30,908 nt of DNA from a virus: positions 1 to 30,908 of the IMG/VR virus record IMGVR_UViG_3300047316_000179; one strand, 5' to 3'. Under the pieces are notes generated by a model. The model had not been told where the DNA came from. It saw only the letters and a list, made by a program, of their open reading frames with translations, and ran no database searches. Each line of letters begins with the position of its first letter. Position 1 is the first letter of the stretch. Shown here piece by piece: positions 2,715 through 28,403 of this stretch. A program made the position numbers and the translations under genes.

Positions 2715-3574
2715 TGTCTGGAAGTTCTTACGATCTCGCGGAGATCGGCACGTATACTGGACAGGATGTTCGGCTGTACCGATTTCAACGCGATCAAGCT
2801 TTTTGGTTTTATAACACCGGAGATCGCGACATAGATTGGAGCGGCGCTACGTGGTTGACTACATCGATATCGGACGACGGCCTCAAGCAGAAGAGCGAAG
2901 CCGTCACGGATGACTTCACCATAACGGTGCCCTCCGGTATGACCATCGTGCAGATGTTTCGCGGCACGCCACCGTCCGATCCCATCAAGGTCACGGTGCG
3001 CCAGTTGCAGTACGGTGACACCATGGCCCCGATCATATGGGTGGGCTACGTGTCATCCGTGAGATACCGGGACGAAGTAACTTCCGATATCGTCGCCAAT
3101 ACCCAAACGGCGTACCTCAACAAGAAAGGTCTGCGTCTATCGTGGACGCGTGGATGTCCGTACGCTCTATACGATCGCGACTGCGGCGTGGATCGCAACC
3201 AATGGGCGGAGTATGTTGCTCTTACCAATCTTCACGGGAACGGTTTTCACTGGAGGCACCTTGGCGGACATCCGATCAACCCCAGCATTTGGCCAGGACG
3301 GCTCACCAACGGCTATGTTGAGTGGAGTCCGTTCCATAATTATTTTGAACGTCGAGCCATTTTAGTCGATCTCAACAGCACTCCACTTGTGAATAACGGT
3401 GACGTGTTGATAATAGGACAGACCGATGGTATGATCGAAGGTATGCACGCCGTTATGTATCCCGGCTGCACTCGCGATCCCGCTGGCTGTAAACGCTTCA
3501 ACAACATTTCTAACTATGGGGGCTTCGGTTTCATGTCGGGCAAATCGCCATTTGACGGTTCGCGCATCTTCTGA
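2714..3574 (+). CDS. Tail hub protein, DUF2163 / phage BR0599 type
   Basis: A 286-residue protein with the features of the DUF2163/Phage_BR0599 family, which forms a hub of siphovirus and GTA tails. It has an N-terminal beta domain, a central RGCPYALYDRDCG segment, and the typical Cys/Asn-rich C-terminus YPGCTRDPAGCKRFNN followed by GGFGFMSGKSPFDG. Family C-termini carry this Cys pair, which binds metal in GTA homologues. AGGAG lies 7 nt before the chosen ATG, which overlaps the previous stop by one base; an ATG three bases earlier is possible. A palindrome copy at 3073 is read in frame as DEVTSD. Its order after the large tail protein and before two small proteins and the tail-tip protein matches D3112/DMS3-like tail blocks. 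Confidence 0.85.
   Translation: MSGSSYDLAEIGTYTGQDVRLYRFQRDQAFWFYNTGDRDIDWSGATWLTTSISDDGLKQKSEAVTDDFTITVPSGMTIVQMFRGTPPSDPIKVTVRQLQYGDTMAPIIWVGYVSSVRYRDEVTSDIVANTQTAYLNKKGLRLSWTRGCPYALYDRDCGVDRNQWAEYVALTNLHGNGFHWRHLGGHPINPSIWPGRLTNGYVEWSPFHNYFERRAILVDLNSTPLVNNGDVLIIGQTDGMIEGMHAVMYPGCTRDPAGCKRFNNISNYGGFGFMSGKSPFDGSRIF
3073..3085. repeat. Palindrome copy 2
   Basis: CGAAGTAACTTCC, one outer base changed; inside the DUF2163-type gene, read EVTS. Confidence 0.9.
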
Positions 3575-3586
3575 AGGAGAACCGTC

Positions 3587-3838
3587 GTGAACTTCGTTTG
3601 GATGATCGCGCTTCTGGTCGTATCGTACGTCCTCACGGCTGTACTTACGCCAAGACCCAAGCCGCCGCCCGATGCCGTCGCGGCCATGTTCAAAGACATC
3701 AACATCCCCATACCAGATGAAGGCGCGCCACAAGCGGTGGTATTCGGAGATTGCTGGACGCCTGATTGGCAAGTGATATGGTACGGCAACATGCGTACCG
3801 AGAACATCATGGCTGACGTTAGCACCGGTAAGAAATAA
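3587..3838 (+). CDS. Small tail-associated protein with N-terminal membrane segment
   Basis: An 83-residue protein starting at GTG, with GAAGGAG about 8 nt upstream. Residues 2-20 form one hydrophobic helix followed by PRPKPPP. The rest (DINIPIPDEGAPQAVVFGD, then WQVIWYGNM) resembles the N-terminal segment of many phage tail-tip proteins, where a 'PxxxEGxxxPVVFG' stretch opens the hub domain. In related phages this short gene sits between the DUF2163 protein and the tail-tip protein. It probably assists tail-tip assembly; no enzymatic motif is seen. Its TAA overlaps the ATG of the next gene. Confidence 0.7.
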   Translation: MNFVWMIALLVVSYVLTAVLTPRPKPPPDAVAAMFKDINIPIPDEGAPQAVVFGDCWTPDWQVIWYGNMRTENIMADVSTGKK

Positions 3839-4044
3839 TGGAAGTTACTTCCGACTTACGAGTGACGATACGCGACGTGCGCGCCGCTCGCCTATGCTGT
3901 CACGGCGGGCGTGATTGGTGTGCCGCGTACGGCATAGCGTGGGCGGATGTTCTTGGTGACGGTGTTCCGGTTGAGTTCTTACTCTCGTTGAAAGACCCGT
4001 TTGCGGAGCGCGTTGTTGCGGCGCGTCTGGCGCGAGCGAAATGA
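3838..4044 (+). CDS. Small conserved tail-region protein
   Basis: A 68-residue protein coupled on both sides: TAATG with the gene before and ATGA with the gene after. The first six codons are made entirely by a palindrome copy (ATG GAA GTT ACT TCC, read MEVTS). The body (VTIRDVRAARLC, WCAAYGIAWADVL, GVPVEFLLSLKDPFAERVV) matches a short conserved family found just before tail-tip proteins in siphoviruses. Function unknown, probably tail assembly. The palindrome forming the start suggests the site was added to, or retained at, the extreme 5' end of the gene. Confidence 0.7.
   Translation: MEVTSDLRVTIRDVRAARLCCHGGRDWCAAYGIAWADVLGDGVPVEFLLSLKDPFAERVVAARLARAK
3840..3852. repeat. Palindrome copy 3, at a start codon
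   Basis: Perfect GGAAGTTACTTCC; its first base is the G of the ATG of the 68-residue gene. Confidence 0.95.
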
Positions 4045-7000
4045 GCAAGAAGAGTAGTCATCAACAACAAATCGTAGGCTATAAGTATTTCCTTGATTTT
4101 CTCATGGGGATATGCCGGGGTAGTGTTGATGAACTGGTAGCATTGAAAGTTGGCGATCTCCCTGCTTGGTCTGGCAGTCAAGGCAGCAACGGCGACATCT
4201 TCATCGACAAGCAGGATTTGTTCGGCGGCAAGACTGGCGAGGGCGGCGTCTGGGGTACCGCCACCTTCATGCTGGGTGAGCCGGGTCAGAATGTAAGCGG
4301 CGGCATCAAGAGTACTATCGCGGGCGGTCCGCAGTCTTCAAACGAAGGCAACTGGACTTTTCAAGATGGCGTCGGTCAATCCGACGAAGGCGCGACCTCG
4401 GAAGATATCGGAGACATATCCGATTTCAGAGGCGTCACCACGCTTTACTGGTCCGGTCAGATCGCTTCGAACAACCCATACGCCAAGCCGTGGAAGGCGC
4501 GCACCCGCCGCACGTTTAGAGGCTGGGATCGTACGGGATGCTGGTACCGCGAAAAGGCGGTCATCAACTACGCGCCGCAGATTACGTCTGGCACCGTCGG
4601 TGTCTGGGACGCATCTGCCAACAACCCGAATTTGCAGAGCGGCGTTGGGCACAGCGGGGAAACGTACAACGTCAGTGTTGCCGGTGGCACCAATTTGGAC
4701 GGCATTACCGACTGGGGCGTTGGCGACATGGCCAGCTACAACGGCGCGGCGTCGCAGTGGCAGAAGATCACGTCGGGTGAAACCATCATCAAGGCGATGA
4801 ACCCGGCGCACATCCTTTACCAATGCCTGACCGACCGGTCGTGGGGTCGAGGCATGTCGCCAGACGAACTGGACAACGATGCCTGGGTCTACGCCGCCAA
4901 CTACCTATTCAACGAGTCCTTCGGCCTGTGTATACGCTGGTCGAAAGACGGCGACATAAACGACTTCATCCAGACCATCATCGATCACATCGGCGCGGCG
5001 ATGTACATCGATCGCGGCACGGGCCTGATGGTGCTGCGGCTGATCCGCAACGACTACAACTACAATCAGTTACCGATATTCGGTTATAGCTCCGGCTTGC
5101 TGTCGGTGGACACTCAGGAAACAGGGGCCAGCACGATCCTCGCCAATGAGGTCGTGGTCAAGTGGCACGATCCGATCCGCGATCAGGACCGGCAGACCAG
5201 GGTACACAACCTCGCGTCCATGCAGTCGCTCGGGTACCCTATTTCCGTCACGCGAGATTTCATTGGCATTCCCGATCCAGACCTCGCGCAGCGTGTGGCC
5301 TTGCGAGAACTTCAGGCTGGTTCCGCTGGCGTCAAACGGTTTAAGATCAGGTTTGACCGGCGCGCGTGGCGCATTCAACCCGGCATGGTCATGCGGATCG
5401 TGGCGGCAGACAAAGGCATCAACGACGTAGTGCTGCGGGTCGCTACGTACGATGACGGCACCATGCTTGACGGCACGATCACGATGGACTGCCTTCAGGA
5501 CGTGTTCGGTCTGCCGTCCACGATCTATGCCCCGCCGGTTCACAATACAACGCCTGAGCCTATAATCCCCGGCGCGCCGCCGGTTGTCGTCGAGTTCGTA
5601 CAGGAAGCCAGCTATCTGGATATGCTGCGCGTCCTAGGTACTGCGGGTCTTTCCGCCGTGGGAGATGCTGAAGGTGGCGTGATAGGAATGGCGAGCAGGC
5701 CGACCTCGACCAGCCAGTATTTTGCGATGTACTCGACACCCGCCGGAGGAGATCAGGGACGCGACATTGGCACATATGCGCCGTCAGCTACAAGCGGTAA
5801 ACCACTCAGTTATTACGATATCAACGTAACTGTTACCAACGGTATGAACCTCGATCTGTTGCAGATCGGTCAGACCGGAATAATCGGCAATAAAGAATTG
5901 GTACGAGTGTCAGCGATGACACCGAGTAGCGGGCTGATCGTCCTCGATCGCGGCGGCGGCGATACCACGCCGATCAAGCACGCGGCGGGCGAGAAGATCA
6001 TATTCGATGATGCTACGTTGAGCGCGGCCTCGGCAGCATTTGAGAACGGCGAGGTAATCAGCGTACAGCTTCAGAACGTCACGTCGTCTGCCGCGAGCGA
6101 TCTCCGGTTGGCGACCACGCATTCCGTAACTATCGTCGCGCGACACTTCATGCCGTACGTGATGGGTGATCTTCGCCTCAACGGCATTCCGGCGTTATCC
6201 GATGTCCCGCTTGGTGCCTTTGGCAATGCGGTGTTTACTTGGAACTCACGCAATCGACTGCTACAGTCCGATCAGTTCATACCGCACAACGGCAGCTCCG
6301 TCTCGCCAGAGGCAGGTACGACTTATGTCGTGGAGGTACGCGACAGCGCCTCGGATGCGTTGATCCGTACGCACAGCGGTATCTCTGCCACCAGCTACAC
6401 CTACACGGCTATCGAGAACGCCGCCGGTGATCCGGTAAAGATCACGTTCGTGTTTTACACGCAACGCGACGGTATCAGTAGCTTCAGTTCGTACCGCGTG
6501 CCGGTGATCTACACTGACGGATCATTCGAGGGCGTCGGTCAGGCGGCTGGTCAGGGCACAGCACAAGCTGTTGGAAGTTACTTCCGACAATCTGTTGGCA
6601 ACGCGGCTGGTCATGGTGCGGCGAACGCGGCGGGACGTTCGGCTACGCTAGCTATCGCTGTCGGTCACGCCGCGGGTCTTGGCTCGATCATCTGGCCGCT
6701 TACCGGTCTGGCCAGAGGCACCGGCGCGGCTCATGGCGTAAGCGAACTGTTCGGTCTGTCTATCAGCGTCGGCACTGCGGCGGGCCACAGCCCGACCAAT
6801 GCCGTCTCGGTTTCGACGGGCACGCTCACCAGCGTCGGCCACGCCACGGGCCTCGGCAATGCTGTCGGCCAGATCGGCAGCGTCATCGTGGTCCAGGCTG
6901 CGGGTCAGGCCGATGGCCTCGGTATCGCGAACGGTATCCAGTTCGTCGTCCCGGTTCCAACCGGTGCGGCTTCCGGCACCGGCACGGCGCACGGTGTCGG

Positions 7001-7829
7001 AGAGCTTGTCCCGAAGGGTGAGGCTTCCGGCGTCGGTGCGGCCCACGCTGTTGGCGACGTTATGCCGGTCGGGTTTGCCTCCGGCACCAGCAACGCAATC
7101 GGCGCAGGCGAAAGCGTGCCGCGTGGCGTGGCGACAGGCTTCGGTGCCGCAATCGCCTTCGGGTCAACCGTTCCGCGTGGCGTGGCAGCGGGTATCGGTG
7201 CGGCACGAGCCATAGGCACAACCGTTCCGCGTGGCGTCGCGGCTGGCGTCGGTGCGGCTCATGGCGTGGTTGCCGTCACCTACAGCAGCGTGGGCGCGGC
7301 ATCGGGTACTGGCGCAGCGATCGGTATCGTCGCTACCACCCATGTTGGCGATGGCACGGCGGCGGGTGTCGGTGCGGCGAACGGCGCTGGCGCGCTCATC
7401 GGTACCGCTTCGAGTGTCGGTGCAGCGGCGGGTATCGGTGCAGCGAATGGCGCTGGCGCACACACCCAGACAAGTGTCGGTGCATCAGCGGGCGTCGGTG
7501 CGGCGAACGCCAACACGGGCAATGTCGCATCGGCAACTGCGACGGCGGATGGAACCGGTACCGCGAGTGCAGTCGGTATCGCCGTTCAGACCATCTCGGG
7601 CGTTGGTGCGGCGAGCGGTGTTGGTGCGGCGAGTGGCGTCGGGCGTTCCATCGCGACGGGAGTTGGAGCAGCGGCGGCATTGGGTGACGCGGTAGCCGTC
7701 GGTATCGCCCTCACGGCATTCTCAGCGGTCGCAATCAGCGCCTCTCGTGTAGGTGTCGGATCGGTTATACTGACCGCGAACCCCGGTAAGACAACGCTTA
7801 TCTCCAACGTGGGGAGTGTCAAGGAATGA
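4041..7829 (+). CDS. Tail-tip / host-specificity protein with Ala-Gly repeat C-terminus
   Basis: A 1262-residue protein that starts inside the previous stop codon (ATGA). The N-terminal ~500 residues have the character of a siphovirus tail-tip hub (J-like or phage tail-3 type), for example LDFLMGICRGSVDELVALKVGD at the start and DFIQTIIDHIGAAMYIDRGTG with WRIQPGMVMRI further on. The middle holds beta-sandwich segments. From about residue 830 (base ~6530) to ~1215 the chain is an imperfect repeat of about 20 residues with the pattern VGxAxGxGxAxxxG. A palindrome copy at 6573 adds SYFRQS between two repeat units. The C-terminus probably forms a fibre or glycine-rich sandwich exposed to the host; that is inference. 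Confidence 0.8.
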   Translation: MSKKSSHQQQIVGYKYFLDFLMGICRGSVDELVALKVGDLPAWSGSQGSNGDIFIDKQDLFGGKTGEGGVWGTATFMLGEPGQNVSGGIKSTIAGGPQSSNEGNWTFQDGVGQSDEGATSEDIGDISDFRGVTTLYWSGQIASNNPYAKPWKARTRRTFRGWDRTGCWYREKAVINYAPQITSGTVGVWDASANNPNLQSGVGHSGETYNVSVAGGTNLDGITDWGVGDMASYNGAASQWQKITSGETIIKAMNPAHILYQCLTDRSWGRGMSPDELDNDAWVYAANYLFNESFGLCIRWSKDGDINDFIQTIIDHIGAAMYIDRGTGLMVLRLIRNDYNYNQLPIFGYSSGLLSVDTQETGASTILANEVVVKWHDPIRDQDRQTRVHNLASMQSLGYPISVTRDFIGIPDPDLAQRVALRELQAGSAGVKRFKIRFDRRAWRIQPGMVMRIVAADKGINDVVLRVATYDDGTMLDGTITMDCLQDVFGLPSTIYAPPVHNTTPEPIIPGAPPVVVEFVQEASYLDMLRVLGTAGLSAVGDAEGGVIGMASRPTSTSQYFAMYSTPAGGDQGRDIGTYAPSATSGKPLSYYDINVTVTNGMNLDLLQIGQTGIIGNKELVRVSAMTPSSGLIVLDRGGGDTTPIKHAAGEKIIFDDATLSAASAAFENGEVISVQLQNVTSSAASDLRLATTHSVTIVARHFMPYVMGDLRLNGIPALSDVPLGAFGNAVFTWNSRNRLLQSDQFIPHNGSSVSPEAGTTYVVEVRDSASDALIRTHSGISATSYTYTAIENAAGDPVKITFVFYTQRDGISSFSSYRVPVIYTDGSFEGVGQAAGQGTAQAVGSYFRQSVGNAAGHGAANAAGRSATLAIAVGHAAGLGSIIWPLTGLARGTGAAHGVSELFGLSISVGTAAGHSPTNAVSVSTGTLTSVGHATGLGNAVGQIGSVIVVQAAGQADGLGIANGIQFVVPVPTGAASGTGTAHGVGELVPKGEASGVGAAHAVGDVMPVGFASGTSNAIGAGESVPRGVATGFGAAIAFGSTVPRGVAAGIGAARAIGTTVPRGVAAGVGAAHGVVAVTYSSVGAASGTGAAIGIVATTHVGDGTAAGVGAANGAGALIGTASSVGAAAGIGAANGAGAHTQTSVGASAGVGAANANTGNVASATATADGTGTASAVGIAVQTISGVGAASGVGAASGVGRSIATGVGAAAALGDAVAVGIALTAFSAVAISASRVGVGSVILTANPGKTTLISNVGSVKE
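6573..6585. repeat. Palindrome copy 4
   Basis: Perfect GGAAGTTACTTCC between two Ala/Gly repeat units of the tail-tip gene, read GSYF. Confidence 0.95.
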
Positions 7830-7847
7830 TCTCGCAGAAGACGCGCC

Positions 7848-9923
7848 GTGGCTGATTGGTACGTATCCAGCGCGGCCTACGCCAGCGTGCCGACTTTCGC
7901 GATCTCGACGGCCTATACCGTTGGGCAATTCGTCAAGCCGATCACGCCTGCGCTCAAGGCGCAGTGGGTTATGCGATGCACCACGGCGGGCACGTCGGCG
8001 GCAACTGAGCCGACATGGCCGTTAATTAACAACAGCACCGTGACCAGCGGTACTGCGGTCTTTACCAACGTCACCGGTCAGAGCGCCTATGGGTGGAGCG
8101 CGGCGGCGGGTGATCTGCCGACTATGTTTGTTGGTGGCGCTCTTCGTTTCACGAGCGGAGAGCGCATATTCATATCCAGCGATCACAGCGAAACACAAAC
8201 CACGTCCACGACGTACGGAGCAACTGGTGGTGGCACCACCAATACCATTTCTCCGATACTGTCCGTCAATCGCGCTGGTAGCGTGCCGCCTGTCGCGGCC
8301 GATCTGTTGCCGGGAGCTACTTGTACAATCTCCGGTGGGTCCTCAGTCCCTACGCTGGAGACGGTTTTTCCGATCTACTATTACGGCATAACTTTCATCA
8401 ACACGGGTGGCGCTGTTTCAGGGGTGATATTCGCTACCAACACCCGGATGAATTATTTCGATACCTGTCAATTCTACCTTAACAACACGAGTGCTGCTCA
8501 ACGTCTTCAATCAGGAACCATGGCGAATACCGTATTTTACAACACGACGGTGCGCTTCGGTCATATTGCTCAATTTTTTGCCAGCACCAACATACACGAG
8601 ATTACTTGGCTCAATACACCCGCTGCTCTGGCTGGTGCCATTTTTCCTACCACCCTATTTGGCATTCCATCGCCGCAAAATGTAACCACCATCATTGCTC
8701 GTGGTGTCGATCTCAGTGCTGTGACCGGAACTTTGGTGGCGAACAGCAATATAGCTTCCGTTAAAGCTCTGTTCGACAGTTGTCGTATCGCGCCGGGGGT
8801 CACTCGCTATTCCGGCGCAACCGCTTTGAACACGCGCGATGAAGTTGAACTGTTCAGTTGTTACGACGGTACGAATATCATCAACGAACGCTACCAGCCC
8901 GCGGGTGCGGTCACGACTGATTTTGTCGTCACGTTGAGCAGCGGCGGCGCTACCGATAACGTCGGTGTGTTCAGCCATAGGATGGTCAGTAGTACGTTCA
9001 TCGACAAGTACTGCAACATGCTCACAGGTTTCTGTATGGACATGAATTATACCACCGTGGGATCTAGCCAGACCGCTACCGTCGAGATCATCAGCAGTGC
9101 CAGTTTGAACAACGACGACATCAGTCTTGAACTTGAATACCCCGGCACGTCCGGTTCGTCATTGGCGTCGTTCGTTGATAATCTTCCGGCCACCGTATTG
9201 ACCGCAGCTTCGGCCCTTCCTACGTCCACGGCAACGTGGAACGGTATGCTTGCCTGGAACCCAGTTGATCTTCTCGCTATTACGTTGAGCGGTGGAAATC
9301 TTATCGCGACCTCGACCGGCGCGGGTTCGGTGCGTGGCCTTAGCGCCTTGACGACAGGTAAATATTATTGGGAATGCACTGTAAACACTTGGAGTCAGGC
9401 CAGTACCAGCGTGGGCGTAGCATCACCGACTGCCGTTTTATCAAATTTCGTGACAACTGGATTTCAATCCGCGATGGCGTACCTGTCCGGGGCACTGTCG
9501 GTAAACAGTGTAACTCAGAGCGGGTCTCTCGGAGCAAGATCGAGCGGCGACATTATAGGGATCGCCGTGGATGGCACCGCGCATTTAATCTGGTTTCGGG
9601 TCGCGCCTTCGGGCAACTGGAACGGCAGCGGTACCGCCAATCCGGCGACCGGAGTGGGAGGTTTTAACATCGCCGGGCTGGGAAGCACTGTGTTCCCGGC
9701 TTTTGGACAGGCTACAAGCGGTCAAAGCGCGACTGCTAATTTCGGGGCTACCGCGTTCACTGGAACTGTCCCTTCTGGGTTTTCGGCTCCGCCGTCCGGT
9801 GGAGTATCGCAAAAACTACAGGTCACGTTCACGCCGCAAACAGCCGGTCGGTTGCGAGGCCGAGTTCGTCTTGGCAAACCTTCGACCACGGTCTACTACG
9901 ATCCACAGATGACGATCACATGA
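7848..9923 (+). CDS. SPRY-domain tail fibre, copy 1
   Basis: A 691-residue structural protein. The GTG start was chosen because the protein then aligns from its first residues (ADWYVSSAAYA) with its tandem paralogue, which has a clear ATG and Shine-Dalgarno. The ribosome site here is weak (AGAAG). A 9-codon frame starting at 7826 overlaps both the previous stop and this start, so coupling is possible. Residues ~1-120 and the last ~40 are shared with the paralogue. Residues ~490-650 look like the SPRY/lectin-like domain common in phage fibres (GKYYWECTVNTW, GDIIGIAVDGTAHLIWFR, GNWNGSGTANPATG, TANFGATAF). Likely a receptor-binding or fibre component. Confidence 0.75.
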   Translation: MADWYVSSAAYASVPTFAISTAYTVGQFVKPITPALKAQWVMRCTTAGTSAATEPTWPLINNSTVTSGTAVFTNVTGQSAYGWSAAAGDLPTMFVGGALRFTSGERIFISSDHSETQTTSTTYGATGGGTTNTISPILSVNRAGSVPPVAADLLPGATCTISGGSSVPTLETVFPIYYYGITFINTGGAVSGVIFATNTRMNYFDTCQFYLNNTSAAQRLQSGTMANTVFYNTTVRFGHIAQFFASTNIHEITWLNTPAALAGAIFPTTLFGIPSPQNVTTIIARGVDLSAVTGTLVANSNIASVKALFDSCRIAPGVTRYSGATALNTRDEVELFSCYDGTNIINERYQPAGAVTTDFVVTLSSGGATDNVGVFSHRMVSSTFIDKYCNMLTGFCMDMNYTTVGSSQTATVEIISSASLNNDDISLELEYPGTSGSSLASFVDNLPATVLTAASALPTSTATWNGMLAWNPVDLLAITLSGGNLIATSTGAGSVRGLSALTTGKYYWECTVNTWSQASTSVGVASPTAVLSNFVTTGFQSAMAYLSGALSVNSVTQSGSLGARSSGDIIGIAVDGTAHLIWFRVAPSGNWNGSGTANPATGVGGFNIAGLGSTVFPAFGQATSGQSATANFGATAFTGTVPSGFSAPPSGGVSQKLQVTFTPQTAGRLRGRVRLGKPSTTVYYDPQMTIT

Positions 9924-9930
9924 GAATGTC

Positions 9931-9943
9931 GGAAGTAACTTCC
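9931..9943. repeat. Palindrome copy 5, between the two fibre genes
   Basis: Perfect GGAAGTAACTTCC, 7 bases after one stop and directly before AAGGAG of the next gene. Confidence 0.95.
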
Positions 9944-9956
9944 AAGGAGCGAGACG

Positions 9957-12074
9957 ATGGCTGACTGGTATGTGTCCAGTGCGGCCTATGCCGCTGTGAC
10001 GCCCTACACGATTTCGACGGCTTACACTGTCGGACAGTTTATTAAGCCGAGTTCACCTACGCTCAAATTGCAATGGGTCATGCGCTGCACGACGGCTGGT
10101 ACTAGTGCGGCGACTGAACCGGCATGGCCAGCAGCCAACAATGGTACCGTCACCAGTGGCGGTGCGGTTTTCACCAATGTCACTGGTCAAAGCACTTACG
10201 GATGGAGTGCAGCGGCGGGTGATATGCCGACTCTAATCGGCGGTGGCGGTGGCGCTGTACGTTTCCTGGGCGGTGATCGTATGTTTGTTTCAAGCGATCA
10301 CAGTGAGACACAAACTGCTAGTGCGACTTATGGTTCTGGAATAGGAACCCAGAGCTACAATCTCGCTTTAGTATTGTCGGTTAATCGCGCCGGAAGCGTG
10401 CCGCCGGTCGCCGCCGATCTGTTGCCGGGAGCCACCGCGACAGTTGGTACCGGCGGCGTAACCCTCACCATAGAATTGGGCTTTCCGGTCTATTTTTACG
10501 GGATGAATTTCGCCAACACCGGTTCAGCTATAGCGGGCATCCAACTCACATCGACTCAATCCAAAATGGGTCGGTTTGATACGTGCGTATTCTATCTAAG
10601 CAGTGCGACAGCCAATCAGCGTTTTCAGGCAGGTTCGATTACTAATATAATCTTCGACAACACGTCGGTGTATTTCACCGGTTCTAGCCAGGGCATCGTC
10701 CTTACGAATGATTGGGAACTGATTTGGATCAACACGCCCTCGCCAATCCTCGGGACCGTAGTTCCGGCTGCGCTGTTCATTCCCGTAACCCTCACTCTCG
10801 CGGGACTGGTAGTGCTGAGAGGTCTCGATTTGAGCGCCCTCACTACGACGTTGATGGCCGGGGGAAGCGGTAATTCCGCTGGGTTCAAGCTGTTGGTTGA
10901 CAGTTGTCGTATCGCGCCGGGGGTGTCTCGTGCTGTCATAGCTCTCGCGAATAATTCGCGTGACGACAATGAACTGGTCAATTGTTTCGACGGCACGAAC
11001 ATCATCAACGAACGGTGGCAATCCGCGGGGGCGGTTACGACCGATTTCGCCGTCACGTTGAGTGGGGGTGCTGTCGATAACGCCGGTGCGTTCAGTCACA
11101 AGATGGTCAGCACTAGCGGCACGAACCTCGATAAAATCGCCAACATGCTGTTAGGTTTTTGGATGGACGTGAACTACACCACGCTCGGTAGCAGCAAGAC
11201 GGCGACGGTCGAGATCAGCAGCAACCTCACGTTGAACAACGATGATATATCGCTGGAGTTGGAATACCTCGGCACATCCGGCTCGTCGCTTGCTACGATA
11301 GTTAACACGTTACCAGCCACGCCACTGACCGCTGCCACGGCTATTGCGACCTCAACAGCGACGTGGGTCAGTTCACTTCCGCCGGGTATCTGGAACACTT
11401 TGGATATGACCGGCATCACACTCAGCGGCGGAGATCTTACTGCGACAGCGACAGGCGCGGGCGGCGTGCGAAATACAAGTTCTATGTCTACAACCGGCAA
11501 ATATTATTTTGAGTTCACCCTGAACACGTATGCCAGCGGCAATAGCGCCGTGGGTGTTGCTTCACCATCGGCTATTCTGGCGTCTGTCGGACCGACGCCG
11601 CTCCAAGCTTCTGTGATGTACCGAACTGGAGCCATTTGGACAAACAATGCGTCTACAGGGTTTAGTCTTGGAACGCGAGCAAACGGTGATGTGATAGGGG
11701 TCGCTGTAGATATCGCCGCACACTTGATCTGGTTCCGAGTTGCGCCATCAGGTCTGTGGAACGGCAGTGGGACAGGCAATCCCGCAACCGGAGTGGCAGG
11801 TCTTACTCTCACTGCTTTGGGCGCTACGGTATTGGCGTGTTTCGGAGCGAGTGTAAGCGGTGAAAGTGTAACCGCTAATTTCGGAGCTACTACAACTGTC
11901 GGAACCGTCCCCGCAGGGTTTACGACAGTTCTACCGCTCGGAACCGTTCCCATCACTAAACAGAAACTACAGGCCACGTTCACGCCACAACAGGCTGGTC
12001 GTGTGAGAGGAAGGTTAAGACTAGGCAGAGTTAACACGACGGTCTACTATGATCCACGCCTCGTTATCACTTAA
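9957..12074 (+). CDS. SPRY-domain tail fibre, copy 2
   Basis: A 705-residue paralogue of the preceding protein, with AAGGAG before the ATG. The N-terminal ~60 residues are nearly identical to copy 1 (ADWYVSSAAYA, then VGQFIKP). The middle, around residues 130-300, diverges most, and the SPRY-like region (residues ~505-665; GKYYFEFTLNTY, GDVIGVAVDIAAHLIWFR) and C-terminus align again. This is the pattern expected of duplicated receptor-binding fibres that keep their anchors and vary in between. The two genes are separated only by 33 bases, which hold a perfect palindrome copy at 9931. Confidence 0.75.
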   Translation: MADWYVSSAAYAAVTPYTISTAYTVGQFIKPSSPTLKLQWVMRCTTAGTSAATEPAWPAANNGTVTSGGAVFTNVTGQSTYGWSAAAGDMPTLIGGGGGAVRFLGGDRMFVSSDHSETQTASATYGSGIGTQSYNLALVLSVNRAGSVPPVAADLLPGATATVGTGGVTLTIELGFPVYFYGMNFANTGSAIAGIQLTSTQSKMGRFDTCVFYLSSATANQRFQAGSITNIIFDNTSVYFTGSSQGIVLTNDWELIWINTPSPILGTVVPAALFIPVTLTLAGLVVLRGLDLSALTTTLMAGGSGNSAGFKLLVDSCRIAPGVSRAVIALANNSRDDNELVNCFDGTNIINERWQSAGAVTTDFAVTLSGGAVDNAGAFSHKMVSTSGTNLDKIANMLLGFWMDVNYTTLGSSKTATVEISSNLTLNNDDISLELEYLGTSGSSLATIVNTLPATPLTAATAIATSTATWVSSLPPGIWNTLDMTGITLSGGDLTATATGAGGVRNTSSMSTTGKYYFEFTLNTYASGNSAVGVASPSAILASVGPTPLQASVMYRTGAIWTNNASTGFSLGTRANGDVIGVAVDIAAHLIWFRVAPSGLWNGSGTGNPATGVAGLTLTALGATVLACFGASVSGESVTANFGATTTVGTVPAGFTTVLPLGTVPITKQKLQATFTPQQAGRVRGRLRLGRVNTTVYYDPRLVIT

Positions 12075-12089
12075 CAAAAGGGATATACC

Positions 12090-12518
12090 ATGTCGATCTC
12101 AGACGCCACTGAAACCGCCATCCTCGGACTGGTCTACAATGCAGCGGCGTGGGCGAACTACGCCGACAACGCTGCGGGCACGCCGCAGACCAACATCGCG
12201 GTCGCGCTGCATGTGGCCGATCCCGGCGACGCCGGTACGCAAGCCACCAGCCCCGCCGCGTACACCTCCTACGCACCGGTCAACGTGCCGCGCACATCGG
12301 GCGGCTGGACGGTCACGGGCGGCACCTGTTCGCCGGTCGCCAACATCGACTTCCCGGCTGGCACCGGAGGGTCCGGCACGGTGAACTTCTTCTCGACGTG
12401 CAAGACCGGCGGCGGCGCAGCGGCGATCCTCTGGTCGGGCACGGTCACACCCAACATCGTCACCGGCACAGGCGTCACGCCGCGCCTCTCGACGGCGACG
12501 ACGATCACGTTGGACTGA
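12090..12518 (+). CDS. Small phage tail fibre-like protein
   Basis: A 142-residue protein with AAAAGGG about 10 nt before the ATG. The N-terminus is a helix (TETAILGLVYNAAAWANYAD), followed by NIAVALHVADPGDAGTQAT and beta-rich repeats ending in ATTITLD. This layout (short helix, 'LH.ADPG..GT', beta sandwich) is that of the common ~140-residue phage 'tail fibre' or capping family found downstream of fibres. No catalytic residues are apparent. It ends the structural block; the next gene follows after 12 bases. Confidence 0.65.
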   Translation: MSISDATETAILGLVYNAAAWANYADNAAGTPQTNIAVALHVADPGDAGTQATSPAAYTSYAPVNVPRTSGGWTVTGGTCSPVANIDFPAGTGGSGTVNFFSTCKTGGGAAAILWSGTVTPNIVTGTGVTPRLSTATTITLD

Positions 12519-13141: not shown

Positions 13142-13154
13142 GGAAGTGACTTCC
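13142..13154. repeat. Palindrome copy 6, at stop/start junction
   Basis: Perfect GGAAGTGACTTCC; abuts one gene's TGA and contains the next gene's GTG. Confidence 0.95.
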
Positions 13155-13364
13155 GATCCAGAGGAACCGAAGCACGGCATCATCAGCGCCGTCGCCCACG
13201 TCGGCTCGCAAGTGGTGAGTTCACTTCAGCCGCAGTTCCTTGCGTTGATCCTTGTCAACGTGATGTTCATGGCAGCGTTCGTGTGGTTCGTTGATGGCCG
13301 GGCCAGACATACCGTCGAGATCATCCAAGCGTTGTTGGAGTCTTGTCTGAAGAATAAACCATGA
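13146..13364 (+). CDS. Small one-helix membrane protein, holin-like candidate
   Basis: A 72-residue protein whose GTG start lies inside a palindrome copy (GTG ACT TCC). A cytosolic or periplasmic stretch is followed by one strong membrane helix, FLALILVNVMFMAAFVWFV (residues ~31-50), then DGRARH and an amphipathic tail. Position after the tail genes fits a holin or spanin-like lysis accessory, but no endolysin was recognised beside it, so this is only context. The AGGAAG arm of the palindrome is too close to serve this GTG as a Shine-Dalgarno, and coupling with the upstream gene is likely. Confidence 0.5.
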   Translation: MTSDPEEPKHGIISAVAHVGSQVVSSLQPQFLALILVNVMFMAAFVWFVDGRARHTVEIIQALLESCLKNKP

Positions 13365-13851: not shown

Positions 13852-13952
13852 GAAATCGGCGTTTGTCGGCACTCTTTACAACCACGACGAAACGAACCTT
13901 GCTAGGCTCTTGCGCGGCAACCGATGCCGCAACTCTTGCAAGGAGCTTTAGG

Positions 13953-14579
13953 ATGCGTAAAGCGGTTGCCGCTACCGCCCTCACACCGCTCGCGGCACAC
14001 GCGACGCTGATTACCTCACTGGCCCAGGAGAGCCTGACCAACACCGTCACCGCGACCGACAATGGTACCGTGACCAACATCAGCATCGCGGCGGGTACCC
14101 TGGTCACGCTGGGCGGCGGCGTGTTCAACGTCTCAGGTGCTTCGTTCCAGCTTTCCGCCACGTCGATCGACAGCGCGATCGACATCGGCGGCGAGATTGT
14201 CCAGCACTACTCGGGATCATTTTGCGTGTCCTCGGTGGCCGGATGCGGTGGTAACTTCCTGTCGGGCACGTTCACCGACGCGGCCTTCGGTGCGACCGGC
14301 GGTCCCGGCTTGACGGTTCAGGTCAGTAACCCGCCAGAGCAGTTGGTGTTGACCTCCAACGTGGTCCCGGCAGCCGACCTCCTGCCGCCGTCTTCGTTCA
14401 ACCTCACGTTCGTCAACCTGTCCAATCCGCTGGTGATCGACGGTACGACTATCGGCGCGTTCGACGCCAGCTTCACGGGTGACGTGTCGGCCTCGGCTGC
14501 ACCGGAACCGGCCTCGCTGGCGCTGCTAGGGGTAGGCGTACTGGGCATCGGTATGGTGGCCCGTCGCCGTCGCGCATAA
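13953..14579 (+). CDS. Secreted PEP-CTERM protein 1
   Basis: A 208-residue protein. AAGGAG lies 8 nt before the chosen ATG, which starts a signal peptide (MRKAVAATALTPLAAHA). The mature part is beta-rich with few charges. The C-terminus is a full PEP-CTERM sorting signal: APEP, a ~17-residue hydrophobic helix (ASLALLGVGVLGIGMVA) and RRRRA. In bacteria this tail is recognised by an exosortase (EpsH/Xrt family), which cleaves the protein and places it at the envelope. No exosortase gene is in the window, so the host must supply it. Function of the body unknown; it could alter the host surface or adhesion. Confidence 0.8.
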   Translation: MRKAVAATALTPLAAHATLITSLAQESLTNTVTATDNGTVTNISIAAGTLVTLGGGVFNVSGASFQLSATSIDSAIDIGGEIVQHYSGSFCVSSVAGCGGNFLSGTFTDAAFGATGGPGLTVQVSNPPEQLVLTSNVVPAADLLPPSSFNLTFVNLSNPLVIDGTTIGAFDASFTGDVSASAAPEPASLALLGVGVLGIGMVARRRRA

Positions 14580-14610
14580 ACGGGGGCACACCCGTCTGGG
14601 AACTACCTGT

Positions 14611-14651
14611 CGGGACGGTGTTCCCCAACATGCCGCCGTCCCGGCTCTTTT
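14611..14651 (+). terminator. Weak terminator or hairpin between PEP-CTERM genes
   Basis: Stem CGGGACGG / CCGTCCCG with a 17-base loop, then GCTCTTTTC. Could separate the two PEP-CTERM genes partially. Confidence 0.5.
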
Positions 14652-14665
14652 CAAAGGAACGTCAC

Positions 14666-15409
14666 ATGAAACGATTACTCGTAGCTACAGTTGTAGTTGC
14701 AGGGGCGATGTTCTTTCATCTCCCCGCCTACGCCGCGTTGATCTCGATCAGCAACGCTAATGGCAACTGCGGCGCGCCAGCGCCGAACGGTGCCTGTGAG
14801 GGCCTTACCTACACGCTGGAAGCACAGGCGACAGCCGATCCGTTGACGGAGCAATTCGCGTTGCTCATCACCGGCCAGAACTCGGGCACCGATACCATCG
14901 GCGGGCGTACCGGCATCGATGCCTTCGCGTTCAATCTCGTGAACAACAAGACCAACTCGCCCGCTACCGGCGTGGTTGTCGGGACCATCTTCGACGGCAC
15001 GCTGGTCAGCAACCCGGCCAATTGGGTGTTCAAGAACGGCGGGCTGAACTCGACCGGCTGCAACAGCACCGGGAATTTCTTCTGCTTCGACAACACGTCA
15101 ATCGACCAGAACTCCAATCCGCCGATTATCCCGACGACGCTCCTCGGCACCACGCCGATCGTGATCGGGTTCGAGGCGACGTTGTTACCGGGTGACTCGT
15201 GGGCCAACTACAGCACGGCGCTGAAGATCAACTGGGTCGGTACCCAGAACAACTACAGCCTCGTGTCAGAGGACATTCCGATCAACACGTCCTGCCCCGA
15301 CTGTGTGATTAACCCGGTCGTCATCGTGGACGCGAGCGAGCCGATGACGCTGGCGATCCTCGGCATGGGATTGCTGGGAATGGTGGCGGTTCGCCGTCGC
15401 CGTACCTGA
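14666..15409 (+). CDS. Secreted PEP-CTERM protein 2 (SEP variant)
   Basis: A 247-residue protein with AAAGGAA before the ATG. It has a clear signal peptide (MKRLLVATVVVAGAMFFHLP, then AYA), a beta-rich body with paired cysteines (NGNCGAPAPNGACEG, STGCNSTGNFFCF, NTSCPDC) and a C-terminal sorting signal DASEP, helix MTLAILGMGLLGMVAV, RRRRT. The Pro of PEP is replaced by Ser, a variant seen in some PEP-CTERM proteins. The cysteines suggest disulfides in the periplasm or outside the cell. Its TGA is the first part of a palindrome copy, and a strong bidirectional terminator follows. Confidence 0.8.
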   Translation: MKRLLVATVVVAGAMFFHLPAYAALISISNANGNCGAPAPNGACEGLTYTLEAQATADPLTEQFALLITGQNSGTDTIGGRTGIDAFAFNLVNNKTNSPATGVVVGTIFDGTLVSNPANWVFKNGGLNSTGCNSTGNFFCFDNTSIDQNSNPPIIPTTLLGTTPIVIGFEATLLPGDSWANYSTALKINWVGTQNNYSLVSEDIPINTSCPDCVINPVVIVDASEPMTLAILGMGLLGMVAVRRRRT

Positions 15410-15424: not shown

Positions 15425-15460
15425 TAAAAAGGCCCCGCTTTCGCGGGGCCTTTCTTTTTA
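15425..15460. terminator. Bidirectional terminator between + and - units
   Basis: AAAAAGGCCCCGC, loop TTTC, GCGGGGCCTTTCTTTTT: a 10-12 bp stem with A and T tracts on either side. Stops the + PEP-CTERM unit and the minus unit alike. Confidence 0.9.
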
Positions 15461-15667: not shown

Positions 15668-16105
15668 TTACTTCGGAGCGGGCGCGGGCGGGAGCGGCGT
15701 ACCGGCGACCAGGGACGGGTCCACTGCAACGTATCGCCATCCCAACGAAGGACAATACGCGATCATCCAGAACACTTGGCTCGGCAGGCCGTTATCGATC
15801 TGTCCGCCGCCGCCGCCACCGGGCAGTGCGTTGCTCGGTCGGTCGGGCAGTCCAGGCGTGGGCCAGATTGTTCCCGGCTCGACTGGTAGACCCTGATCGG
15901 GATGCACCGGCACGATGGGCCTCGACCACGACGGCGGGGGCCAGGTACCTGGGGGCGGGGCTGGCAGTGTTGCGCCGGGAGGGATACCACCCGGCAAGGT
16001 ATTGTCTGGATGTCCGCCGGGACCGCCAGGAAGTTCGTTGTCGATCTCGCCGTCGCCAGGTACAGCGATGTTCAGGTATCCGCCGGATACGTGTACGCGG
16101 GTCAT
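15668..16105 (-). CDS. Pro/Gly-rich repeat protein
   Basis: A 145-residue protein with GGAG before the ATG. The N-terminal two thirds are Pro/Gly repeats of the type HPDNTLPGG, HPDQGLPVEPG and IDNGLPS. The C-terminal part WMIAYCPSLGWRYVAVDPSL resembles the short globular end of a repeat-protein type often seen in phages of alphaproteobacteria, where it is preceded by PPGxIWPP. No enzymatic motif. It may be a structural or surface-exposed protein; the role is unknown. Lies between a hairpin at 16138 and the 47-residue gene in the unit read from 17.7 kb. Confidence 0.65.
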   Translation of the reverse strand: MTRVHVSGGYLNIAVPGDGEIDNELPGGPGGHPDNTLPGGIPPGATLPAPPPGTWPPPSWSRPIVPVHPDQGLPVEPGTIWPTPGLPDRPSNALPGGGGGGQIDNGLPSQVFWMIAYCPSLGWRYVAVDPSLVAGTPLPPAPAPK

Positions 16106-16177: not shown

Positions 16178-17185
16178 CTATCCGTGATCGCTGTGGATTG
16201 CGATGGAAGTAACTTCCGCTGCGTGATGATGCCCGCCGTGGCCATGGCCGTGAACTGGTGGTGGCGGTGGTGGCGGTGGCGTTGTCCCGCCGGTGAACGT
16301 CAGCGGCGTGAGATCGAGTGGCGGGCGTGCCGCCAGATCGGTGTTGCCCGACGCCGTGACGTTGCCAAGATTGGCGAGGTTCCAATCCTGATTGTTGGTA
16401 TACGATGCTGGTCCACCGAGTACGCCGTAGGCGTTGGACGCCAGATCGTCGTTGACCACGGTGTTGCCGGTGATGAACATCATGCCTGGATGAGTAATGC
16501 CTTCTTCACCCCAGGCGAAGATGGCCGGGTTCTGCGTGTTTGGACCTTGCTCGATTACGTTACCCGTAACATTCGCAGTACCACCATTTGGCAGGTCGAT
16601 AGAATAGCTAGCACTACCACTATTATCAAAAATACGATTACCCGTGATCGTATTATTCGCGGCTCGGGATTTGATTTCATGGCCTACCACCGCGTCGTGG
16701 ATGTACGAGTTCGTGATCGAGAATGACGCGATATCACCAACGTAGATGTTGTGCGTCGAGCCTGATCCATCGCCATTCGATGCAAATTCACTGTGGTTAA
16801 TCGTGATACTGCCGCTTGAGTCGGCGGCTCCGAGTAATCCCTCTTGGTTGTTGTGGAAGAAATCATCCGTGAGAGAAAGGGCTCCGCCCTCGTAGCGGAT
16901 TGCCGCGCCGTTGTGATCCGGGACAGAAACGCCCGATATATCGAACCCATTGATTGCAACGGCGATGCCACTGGCTCCCTCCGTTATCATTGCTTTGCCG
17001 TTCGGCGGCTGCACCGTCTCGCGCAGCAATACTTGGCCGTTCACGGCTTGCAAAGTGATCGAGGTACGAATGGTGAGAAACTGGTCAGTGTAGGTGCCAG
17101 CCTGCACATCGATCGTATCGCCCGGTGCGGCGGCATCGATCGCGGCTTGGATGGACTGGCCTTGGCCGACGAGTACTGTGGTCAT
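16178..17185 (-). CDS. Right-handed parallel beta-helix protein
   Basis: A 335-residue protein starting MTTVLVGQGQSIQAAIDAAAPGDTIDV, the typical cap of pectate-lyase-like beta helices, after a good GGAGG. Rungs follow with the usual N/G/I pattern (ITINHSEF, FSITNSYIHDA, NTITGNRIFDN, ANVTGNVIEQG, MMFITGNTVVNDD). The C-terminus is a poly-proline run and a His/Gly-rich stretch (VHGHGHGGHHHAAE), then palindrome-encoded EVTS. No catalytic set is obvious. In phages such folds are usually tail spikes, but this gene lies outside the tail block on the other strand. Its A+T-rich middle (16540-16680) suggests acquisition from a bacterium. Confidence 0.75.
   Translation of the reverse strand: MTTVLVGQGQSIQAAIDAAAPGDTIDVQAGTYTDQFLTIRTSITLQAVNGQVLLRETVQPPNGKAMITEGASGIAVAINGFDISGVSVPDHNGAAIRYEGGALSLTDDFFHNNQEGLLGAADSSGSITINHSEFASNGDGSGSTHNIYVGDIASFSITNSYIHDAVVGHEIKSRAANNTITGNRIFDNSGSASYSIDLPNGGTANVTGNVIEQGPNTQNPAIFAWGEEGITHPGMMFITGNTVVNDDLASNAYGVLGGPASYTNNQDWNLANLGNVTASGNTDLAARPPLDLTPLTFTGGTTPPPPPPPPVHGHGHGGHHHAAEVTSIAIHSDHG
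16205..16217. repeat. Palindrome copy 9
   Basis: Perfect copy in the last codons of the beta-helix gene (minus strand), read EVTS. Confidence 0.95.
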
Positions 17186-17225
17186 TGTGTCCTCCGTTTG
17201 CAGGTCGGTACCATAGCACATAAGC

Positions 17226-17290
17226 GAACGGGGGTCGATCTGGCGGATCAACCCCCGTTCTAATGATCGTACGGCTTGCACCCCGTACGA
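17226..17290. other. Two adjacent hairpins between minus genes
   Basis: GAACGGGGGT / ACCCCCGTTC (17226-17260) and TCGTACGG / CCGTACGA (17267-17290). They lie between the DUF3846-like stop and the beta-helix start. No T tract, so attenuator or processing role is possible. Confidence 0.5.
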
Positions 17291-19100: not shown

Positions 19101-19113
19101 GGAAGTCACTTCC
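19101..19113. repeat. Palindrome copy 13, supplies a Shine-Dalgarno
   Basis: Perfect GGAAGTCACTTCC, directly upstream of the ATG at 19100 (minus). Confidence 0.95.
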
Positions 19114-19687
19114 TCCTGAATATGCACATCACTCGAAAGCGATGATTTGTTGACTTTACGATCCCGACACAGCCTGCGAGGTCGAACGTGTCCTTGCGCC
19201 ACATCGGGAGTACCTGATCGAGCCACACGATGTGTGCCCCGGCGGGCAACCGGGCCAGGGCTTTCAACACGACGTTCCGCTTGACGCTGGAGGTCATGTA
19301 GTGATCCGCGTCCTCGGCTGAGTATGGCGGATCGGCCAGGACCAGATCATACCGTTCAAGCGGCACACGCAAGAGCGTGTGGGCGTCGTCAACATAGGTG
19401 GGGTTTAGATCGGGATGCACGTCTACCGTGTCACCGGGGTATAGTGTGGTGTCAACTTTCCCAGAGAACAAATGGAGAACGCGCTTCTTATCTCGGAACA
19501 TGGAACGAACTCGTTCGAGATAGGTGGCAGGGTACCCACCATAGAACCGGTACTTGACGTGGTAGTCGTTGCCCATAATCCACGTCCCGACCAGCCTGCC
19601 GTCGGCAGCGATGAACAAGGCTTCGGGGTAGCCTGTCTCGAAGGCGTAGTCTTGGATGCGCTCGTGCCAGCCATAGGGGTCTTTCAT
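19106..19687 (-). CDS. DNA methyltransferase-like protein
   Basis: A 193-residue protein starting MKDPYGWHERIQDYAFETG, overlapping the previous stop (ATGA) and preceded by AGCAGG. Features of a class I SAM-dependent methyltransferase are visible: a motif I-like VLHLFSGK (residues ~85-92), an acidic strand end VDVHPDLNP, and motif IV LADPPYSAEDA (DPPY, residues ~130-140), typical of adenine-N6 or cytosine-N4 enzymes. It lacks a recognisable target-recognition domain and has no restriction partner nearby. Likely modifies phage or host DNA, perhaps against restriction; the target is unknown. Confidence 0.65.
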   Translation of the reverse strand: MKDPYGWHERIQDYAFETGYPEALFIAADGRLVGTWIMGNDYHVKYRFYGGYPATYLERVRSMFRDKKRVLHLFSGKVDTTLYPGDTVDVHPDLNPTYVDDAHTLLRVPLERYDLVLADPPYSAEDADHYMTSSVKRNVVLKALARLPAGAHIVWLDQVLPMWRKDTFDLAGCVGIVKSTNHRFRVMCIFRRK

Positions 19688-19875
19688 CCTGCTTCTGCCT
19701 CGGAAGTAACTTCCGCCGGTCGAACATTCCAGCCTTGAGCCTTGAGTTTCTCCCGATTTTGGTAGGTATTTGGCATGTGCTTGAGTGCCAGTAACCGACT
19801 CCACGCGCCGTCCTCCGATACGAACCGGTTGGCCCAGGATATGCCGTACCTTGTCACGACTTTGTAGGTTTGCAT
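19684..19875 (-). CDS. Small phage protein (63 residues)
   Basis: Starts MQTYKVVTRYGISWANRFVS, with GGAG six bases before the ATG; an in-frame ATG lies 12 bases upstream. Residues ~17-45 are charged and helical. The last residues come from a palindrome copy (PAEVTSEAEAG). It is the first gene after the terminator that follows the ParB-like gene, so it is expressed by read-through or from an unseen promoter. Function unknown. Confidence 0.55.
   Translation of the reverse strand: MQTYKVVTRYGISWANRFVSEDGAWSRLLALKHMPNTYQNREKLKAQGWNVRPAEVTSEAEAG
19702..19714. repeat. Palindrome copy 14
   Basis: Perfect copy in the last codons of the 63-residue minus gene, read EVTS; C...G flanks. Confidence 0.95.
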
Positions 19876-19890
19876 CGTCTTCTCCATACG

Positions 19891-19917
19891 AAAAAGGCGG
19901 GGCCTCTCGACCCCGCC
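19891..19917 (-). terminator. Terminator after ParB-like gene 1
   Basis: Minus-strand stem GGCGGGG / CCCCGCC with an 8-base loop followed by TTTTT. Confidence 0.85.
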
Positions 19918-19922
19918 ATTCC

Positions 19923-19935
19923 GGAAGTAACTTCC
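19923..19935. repeat. Palindrome copy 15, between stop and terminator
   Basis: Perfect copy lying between the stop of ParB-like gene 1 and its terminator. Confidence 0.95.
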
Positions 19936-19940
19936 AGCGA

Positions 19941-21179
19941 TTACAGATCGCCGGAGGCTGGTTCGGCAATGCCGAGTTTTCGAAGATCGGGAACGCTGCT
20001 GTCCTCCTCTTCGGAGTTTTCGTCCTCGGACAGATCGTCGTCGTCTTCCTCAGTGTCCTCGGACAGATCGTCCTCGGCTGCGGCAGGCTTCGTCTTCTTG
20101 CCGTTGGTCTTGGCGGCTTTCGCGGCTGCCTTCTCGGCGGCGATCTGAGCGGCAACTTCGTCTTCCGCTGCCAGTTCGTCGGCGGTCTTTGTCCGCTGGA
20201 TTTTAACCCTGATCTTCATATCCGACAGGGCAATCTTCTTCTTGGTCGAGCGAGTGCCTTTGAACCAGCTCTCATCCTCTTCGAGCAGGCCCATGAACGG
20301 CTCTACGTCTTCGTACTGGAACTCAGCGCCAGCCTGGGCGGTGAAGCCCAACTCTATCGTCTTCACCGTGTTGCGCGGCGGCTTCTCTCCACCGGCTTCA
20401 AGGTTCTTCCGTGTCAGCTTCTCAGCCTTCTTGGCCAAGCTGGCTTCGGCTTTCGCCTCGGCCTTTGCGGCGGCTTCCATGATCTTCTCGCCCGTAGGGT
20501 CTTTGCGTAGTTGTGCAATCGCCTCATAGGCCGCGATCTTGTTGTCGCGTATCAGATCACGCACGCCCTTCGGCGCGTTGATGATGACCTTCAAGTCACG
20601 AACGTGTTTGTTCGTGACGCCGAGACGGGCGGCGATATCATCGTCATCCATGCCGGTCTTTGCCATACGGTTTGCCAGTACCGCACGCTCCAGAATTGTC
20701 GGACGAACGCCGGTGTTCTCTTTCCACAAAGACACCGCGAGGTCCATGTCCGTCGATCCTGGCTTCTTCATCACGACAGGAAGTTTGGTGATGTCAGCGC
20801 CCTCGCTGGCGGCGAGGAGAGCCGCTTCGTACCGGCGATGGCCCGAGATCAGAGCCAACCGGGTCTCGCCACCAATCTCGGCAGGGAACACGCCGAGCGG
20901 CTGACTGTCGTAATAGCCTTCAGCCTTCATGCTGTCGGCCAGTTCACGAATACCGTCTTTGTACTCCTGGGTATCCGTCACACGCAGGTTAAGTCCAGGC
21001 ACGATGGTGATCTTATCGAGTTGCACCGTGTAGAACCTGGTACTCTTAGACGCTTCGGCATTAGCAATTGCCTCGGCAGACGTACCGGGGGTGAACTCGA
21101 TCATCTTCATACTTACGCGGCTTGGCGGAACGGCTTTTGCGCGGGGCGCTTTAGCCGCTGTTTTTGCTGCTCTTGCCAT
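19941..21179 (-). CDS. ParB-like DNA-binding protein 1 (acidic C-terminus)
   Basis: A 412-residue protein. After a basic Ala/Lys-rich N-terminus (~1-22) comes a ParB/Sulfiredoxin-type domain (residues ~50-135) with IVPGLNLR, YKDGIRELADSMKAEGY and the nucleotide-site motif ISGHRRYEAALLA. Next is a ParB-type helix-turn-helix (TILERAVLANRMAKTGMDDD, then IAARLGVTNKHVRDL). The C-terminal ~70 residues are Ala/Lys-rich and then strongly acidic (SEDTEEDDDD). ParB proteins bind palindromic sites and spread using CTP, but no ParA gene and no canonical parS are visible. Promoter P5 lies ~60 bases upstream and a terminator follows, so it is a single-gene unit. Partition, replication or transcription roles are all possible. 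Confidence 0.8.
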   Translation of the reverse strand: MARAAKTAAKAPRAKAVPPSRVSMKMIEFTPGTSAEAIANAEASKSTRFYTVQLDKITIVPGLNLRVTDTQEYKDGIRELADSMKAEGYYDSQPLGVFPAEIGGETRLALISGHRRYEAALLAASEGADITKLPVVMKKPGSTDMDLAVSLWKENTGVRPTILERAVLANRMAKTGMDDDDIAARLGVTNKHVRDLKVIINAPKGVRDLIRDNKIAAYEAIAQLRKDPTGEKIMEAAAKAEAKAEASLAKKAEKLTRKNLEAGGEKPPRNTVKTIELGFTAQAGAEFQYEDVEPFMGLLEEDESWFKGTRSTKKKIALSDMKIRVKIQRTKTADELAAEDEVAAQIAAEKAAAKAAKTNGKKTKPAAAEDDLSEDTEEDDDDLSEDENSEEEDSSVPDLRKLGIAEPASGDL

Positions 21180-28334: not shown

Positions 28335-28403
28335 TAGTTGCGGTCAAAAGAGACCGCCGCAACGGCAATCGCCGATTGTGAAATGAAACGGAGTAAAGCA
28401 ACT

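Follow-up and report, generated by a model that had tools for sequence, protein, structure and literature searches.

In bacteria, proteins of the PEP-CTERM/exosortase pathway are exported by Sec, held transiently in the membrane by a C-terminal anchor and processed by an exosortase, and the substrates of this enzyme are known as envelope and exopolysaccharide proteins. These substrates (TIGR02595, PF07589; XrtA/EpsH system TIGR03109) combine a signal peptide and a variable beta-rich body with a PEP motif, a hydrophobic stretch and a basic end. The two proteins described here, P1 and P2, share this build, but are phage-encoded without a phage exosortase and are exchanged among unrelated phages, and P2 carries the variant motif SEP. 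The T5 protein Llp is a phage-encoded lipoprotein exported to the host envelope, where it is proposed to guard the phage receptor, a device of the lysogenic-conversion or superinfection-exclusion kind. Compared by description, Llp and P1/P2 are both phage-encoded and envelope-directed (P1 and P2 by proposal), whereas Llp is a lipoprotein and P1 and P2 would take the exosortase route. By anatomy, P1 and P2 are PEP-CTERM proteins; what seems new is their setting, as widespread, selected exosortase substrates found across phages.

Two sets of cellular PEP-CTERM proteins lend themselves to closer comparison. Residues 67–207 of P1 align to positions 136–261 of the model for PepA (NF033554; Zoogloea, Aquincola) with an E value of 2.3e-9, a similarity that extends beyond the tail. 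Since P1 scores only 37.4 bits against a cut-off of 80, it is not a PepA equivalog, and PepA itself is a cellular protein, not a phage one; the PepA model was nonetheless weakly matched by 16 of 18 P1 members. Acetobacteraceae PEP-CTERM proteins (a Rhodopila-like P1 homologue and P2 homologues on Acidiphilium plasmids) match over their full or near full length, including the sorting tail, at about 40–50% identity. These are cellular or plasmid-borne, and the VPAPAG tails of some have no Glu, whereas the phage copies form a clade of their own.

The DNA analysed, referred to here as the window, is a 30,908-base virus contig (IMG/VR record IMGVR_UViG_3300047316_000179). Its listing among the IMG/VR viruses and the tail genes directly upstream of P1 show it to be phage DNA, as a preliminary description had proposed. 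The tail module (2711–12518, + strand) encodes phrog_778, phrog_1180 and phrog_1101 proteins, a gp80-like protein and two SPRY/fibre-like proteins, and is followed upstream of P1 by a small, holin-sized protein with a single transmembrane segment (13146–13364, +; cluster c4), relatives of which are present in eight PEP-CTERM phage loci. Downstream of P1 and P2 lie genes for a DNA methyltransferase and two ParB-like proteins (19941–21179 and 28338–29774), which likewise bear out the phage assignment. The possibility that the genes sit on a bacterial island is ruled out by neighbouring tail, terminase and portal genes. GenBank phages contain 750 relatives of the N-terminal 753 residues of the 1262-aa tail protein, all but one at less than 60% identity, and the best listed matches in isolate phages, which infect many different hosts, reach only 33–37%, which places the phage in a group not yet sampled.

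Two further features of the contig were recorded. Many Acetobacteraceae genomes contain genes with 65–71% DNA identity to that of the DNA methyltransferase (19106–20155, − strand). In addition, a 13-bp palindrome, GGAAGTNACTTCC, occurs in about 34 copies across the whole contig (1481–28258), both within genes and at gene ends, compared with an expectation of about 0.2 per strand; examples lie at 1481, 3840, 6573, 9931, 13142, 13387, 15407, 16205, 17362, 18536, 19101, 19702, 19923, 22537, 22929, 23023, 24293, 25195, 26561, 27806, 28233 and 28258. It did not occur repeatedly in the other loci compared. As the phage encodes two ParB-like proteins, one of these could possibly bind at the scattered palindromes.

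P1 (13953–14579, +; 208 aa) is preceded by a ribosome-binding site, AAGGAG (13940–13945, +), 8 nt before its ATG. It begins with a predicted signal peptide, MRKAVAATALTPLAAHA (13953–14003, +), continues after the expected cleavage point as TLITS and terminates in SAAPEPASLALLGVGVLGIGMVARRRRA, with the PEP-CTERM tail PEPASLALLGVGVLGIGMVARRRRA (14499–14576, +) comprising PEP, a hydrophobic segment and a basic end. P2 (14666–15409, +; 247 aa) has a ribosome-binding site, AAAGGA, at 14653–14658 (+), a predicted signal peptide, MKRLLVATVVVAGAMFFHLPAYA (14666–14734, +), followed by ALIS, and a C-terminus, DASEPMTLAILGMGLLGMVAVRRRRT, that includes the SEP-type tail SEPMTLAILGMGLLGMVAVRRRRT (15335–15406, +). 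A strong intrinsic terminator with an 11-bp stem and a T-run (15428–15453, +) closes the P1–P2 unit. The Sec-type signal peptides, which are expected at the N-terminus of PEP-CTERM proteins and contain no lipobox, were called by eye and from their conservation across homologues. Beta-rich bodies are also what AlphaFold2 predicts, with modest confidence (pLDDT 62 and 64). Structure comparison gave no convincing fold match for the P1 model, and the P2 model showed a weak resemblance to Ig-like adhesins such as ACE19 (E 4.6e-4), which suggests that the P2 body may be an Ig-like beta-sandwich. The preliminary description had read this locus as two adjacent genes, each with a signal peptide, a beta-rich body and a PEP or SEP tail, and in this the sequence, TIGR02595 and the homologues all agree.

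The tails were then compared with the profiles that define the bacterial sorting signal. TIGR02595 had exactly two matches in the record, the tails of P1 (E 8.5e-7) and P2 (E 2.0e-5), both above the curated cut-off, and no match in 14 control genomes. With Pfam PF07589, P1 passed at 26.4 bits and P2 fell slightly under the threshold (19.2 versus 20.7 bits). Both proteins thus have the C-terminal domain typical of the class, P2 with SEP; SEP and GEP variants were also seen among relatives, and the E-P pair was invariant across A1 and A2. Judged by profile, the tails of P1 and P2 are genuine exosortase sorting signals. A chance match is ruled out by the TIGR02595 scores together with the homologues, which retain signal peptide, body and tail and have pN/pS values well below 1.

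Similar proteins are common in uncultured viruses. In IMG/VR, a single-sequence scan found 32 close relatives of P1 and 17 of P2, and a profile scan raised the number for P1 to 123. Among the 80 best of these 123, which form 52 clusters at 90% identity, 77 kept the sorting tail; the three without it (L337, L338 and L343) are one sequence from one phage lineage in three assemblies, in which P1 ends exactly where the tail would start (VPGR-stop). An independent scan with a DNA pattern for PEPAxLALLG returned 102 viral stretches, and in 78 of the 80 examined the motif was a true C-terminal tail; the P1 superfamily profile matched 46 of those 78. In six phage contigs, the place ahead of P2 that P1 takes in the window is filled by a third PEP-CTERM family, c8. 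The preliminary description knew of few phage examples. Named isolates bear this out: searches of 50,697 GenBank phages returned no relative of P1 or P2, and a search of named phages with the tail consensus found no PEP-CTERM protein, although the low-complexity filter may have removed this 29-aa query. Among uncultured phages, by contrast, the class is common. The open-licence papers searched contained no report on PEP-CTERM proteins in phages, prophages, auxiliary metabolic genes (AMGs) or viral contigs. Since more than 100 other viral contigs carry P1 relatives, it appears that phages produce surface proteins dependent on a host enzyme for their sorting.

Two observations concern individual members of this collection. 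One viral record with a PEP-CTERM protein, IMGVR_UViG_2784746777_000003 (L228), has an identifier that suggests a sequenced isolate and could provide a direct link to a host. Next to the P1–P2 unit, the window encodes a protein (15668–16105, −) in which PDNTLPG-type motifs recur and the C-terminus, WRYVxVDPSL..G.PLPP, is conserved; its family (cluster c3) is common to ten other PEP-CTERM phage loci.

P1-like genes are found in at least three unrelated types of phage, with a phrog_1101-type tail, a P22-type portal, or Portal_3 and Terminase_6. The P1 of the window, from the first type, is 77% identical to that of a phage with a P22-type portal (L004) and 79% identical to that of a phage with Portal_3 and Terminase_6 (L007), and in two other cases (G013 and L047) a member of the P1 family sits between terminase and portal. 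In a phylogenetic tree, 27 phage members form a clade with support of 98/91, with all cellular copies outside it. When the window genes were compared with their homologues, pN/pS was 0.20–0.65 for P1 and 0.11–0.55 for P2, the tails were constrained as much as the bodies, and the bodies contained many invariant residues. Given the low pN/pS, the separate phage clade and the unrelated structural modules, the genes are, on comparative grounds, retained by selection in phages. The best explanation is that P1 and P2 are host-derived exosortase substrates passed between phages.

Exosortase (PF09721) was absent from all 26 phage records searched, ruling out an enzyme encoded by these phages, and any sorting must therefore use that of the host. 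A right-handed beta-helix protein without a signal peptide (16178–17281, −), which adjoins P1 and P2, also turns up near the PEP-CTERM genes of 15 further phage loci, and its aligned members are 58–76% identical to the copy in the window. The great majority of its closest cellular relatives belong to Acetobacteraceae. Exosortase is encoded in 22, and PEP-CTERM proteins (up to 26 in each) in 24, of the 30 genomes that carry such relatives. Among 397 Acetobacteraceae genomes, a sensitive profile search identified full-length homologues of P1 in six, or eight when two partial matches are included, and a sensitive search identified homologues of P2 in four. This rate is low for P1, and the homologues of both proteins are distant, lying on chromosomes and plasmids; where examined, the setting of cellular P1 homologues was chromosomal, beside smpB and dapA in two genomes. 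Among 385 Alphaproteobacteria drawn from across the class, P1 was matched in the centre genome alone, and a P1 profile scan of 84,980 species genomes gave no match. A close chromosomal donor is thus rejected, as the profile scan of genome contigs was empty and the sensitive search recovered only distant Acetobacteraceae homologues. Of the 12 genomes in which cellular homologues of P1 or P2 occur, 10 encode exosortase, and the one enzyme typed, in the Rhodopila genome, is an XrtA with a FemAB partner.

Homologues of P2 are annotated as PEP-CTERM proteins on eight plasmids, six from Acidiphilium (NC_009467, NC_009469, NC_009471, NC_015178, NC_015181 and NZ_CP041718) and two from Acidithiobacillus (CP084173 and CP084175), and the P2 family is therefore mobile beyond phages. 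Separately, two Acetobacteraceae genomes (G289 and G317; loci L159–L177 and L185–L191) each contain at least seven dispersed P1 homologues, all with VPAPAG tails without the Glu of PEP; both genomes nonetheless encode exosortase.

Direct searches for the host were also made. When 20 kb of the window were compared with the 397 Acetobacteraceae genomes for CRISPR spacers, there were candidate matches of 25–36 bp, none of which, among those inspected, lay in a CRISPR array, and no prophage linking the phage to a host was found. GC content across phages of the P1/P2 family spans 39–64%, and hosts therefore differ among them; the terminase of the Portal_3/Terminase_6 phage L007 is closest to those of Rhizobium phages (about 55%). 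For the phage in the window, the relatives of the beta-helix protein, the homologues of P1 and P2 and the exosortase-bearing genomes in which they occur make an Acetobacteraceae-like host most likely. The preliminary description would have been undone by a host lacking any exosortase; as far as can be tested, with a host that we infer from homologues, this objection does not apply, since homologue-bearing genomes mostly encode the enzyme.

Taken together, we consider it probable, with some room for doubt, that P1 and P2 are phage cargo drawn from the envelope repertoire of exosortase-bearing, Acetobacteraceae-like bacteria, sorted by the host and altering the cell surface during infection. The genes' anatomy, conservation, phage context and spread, the lack of a phage exosortase and the cellular homologues are the observations from which we infer the host, the processing, the final location and the benefit to the phage. 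The position of P1 and P2 among late genes suggests late expression, and the two proteins would then be made in infection alongside tail and lysis genes. Sec would export them, the C-terminal helix would retain them in the inner membrane, and a host exosortase, probably of the XrtA type, would cleave and sort them, such that the beta-domain would arrive in the host envelope or exopolysaccharide layer and change the cell surface. In line with such a location, the cellular PEP-CTERM protein PepA keeps exopolysaccharide bound to cells (PMC9850573), and P1 members weakly match its model. The preliminary description had suggested that the phage may use the exosortase of its host for surface display, for example to alter adhesion, biofilm or phage receptors, and this interpretation is partly supported. 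The likeliest benefit would be that surface receptors or exopolysaccharide are hidden or altered, reducing re-adsorption, superinfection and the loss of progeny. Counting against this model are the one phage lineage without a sorting tail, the negative CRISPR and prophage searches, the low rate of P1 homologues in Acetobacteraceae, the broad GC range of the phages and the want of a convincing fold for P1.

The same tail evidence would also apply if excess P1 and P2 served to keep the exosortase of the host, or its carrier, busy, leaving host PEP-CTERM proteins unprocessed so that the exopolysaccharide coat loosens and virions leave, with no need for the beta-domain to act. Several unrelated PEP-CTERM bodies (P1, P2, c8 and others) occur in phages, as if the tail mattered most, and the PEP-CTERM proteins of host genomes, numerous as they can be, would be available as targets. 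A pure decoy, however, needs neither invariant residues nor purifying selection on the body about as strong as that on the tail, and we regard this explanation as unlikely. We assign a similarly low probability to P1 and P2 being matrix proteins that, by adhesion or by binding exopolysaccharide, keep infected cells attached to one another, promoting flocs in the manner of PepA and raising local host density. The binding of exopolysaccharide to cells by PepA (PMC9850573) and the weak but consistent similarity of P1 members to the floc_PepA model, along with the weak resemblance of the P2 model to Ig-like adhesins, would fit such a role. Against it stand scores far under the PepA cut-off and the finding of an integrase in just 2 of 35 phage records, so that there is no sign of the long persistence in cells under which such a trait would be favoured. 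Masking of receptors or exopolysaccharide appears preferable to us over both a decoy and aggregation.

An N-terminal signal, a beta-rich periplasmic body and a C-terminal transmembrane helix are also the topology of a lysis protein that spans the membrane in the manner of a unimolecular spanin, and P1 and P2 follow tail fibre genes with the small holin-sized gene just upstream. Unimolecular spanins require an N-terminal lipobox, and none with Cys at +1 was found in the leader regions of P1, P2 or their relatives; the four pattern matches among 187 all lay in mature sequence. This absence rules out a spanin identity, and as the tail also matches a specific sorting signal and the gene position is not fixed, shifting to the terminase–portal interval in other phages, a spanin-like function is very improbable. 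It is more improbable still that the genes were acquired from a host by accident, or are bacterial contigs misfiled as viral, and have no function for the phage. The families do have cellular homologues, but dozens of divergent phage copies have low pN/pS, the phage clade stands apart from cellular copies, and terminase, portal and tail genes adjoin the gene in unrelated phages. For the family this explanation is already refuted, which leaves only a slender chance that the window copy alone is inert.

Looking beyond this phage, it is conceivable, at a little less than an even chance, that phages of exosortase-bearing bacteria carry widespread, exchanged exosortase substrates, with at least three unrelated bodies (P1, P2 and c8), that, by way of the host exosortase, remodel the surface or exopolysaccharide of the infected cell, and that would constitute a hitherto undescribed system for guarding receptors or controlling exopolysaccharide. 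If so, the large, conserved set of phage-borne genes would mean that phages exploit the exosortase sorting route, and would offer new handles on how they deal with exopolysaccharide-coated hosts and protect their progeny. Phage PEP-CTERM genes are also a genomic marker tying uncultured soil phages to exosortase-bearing hosts, and the small size of the phage proteins makes the surface role of PEP-CTERM proteins testable.
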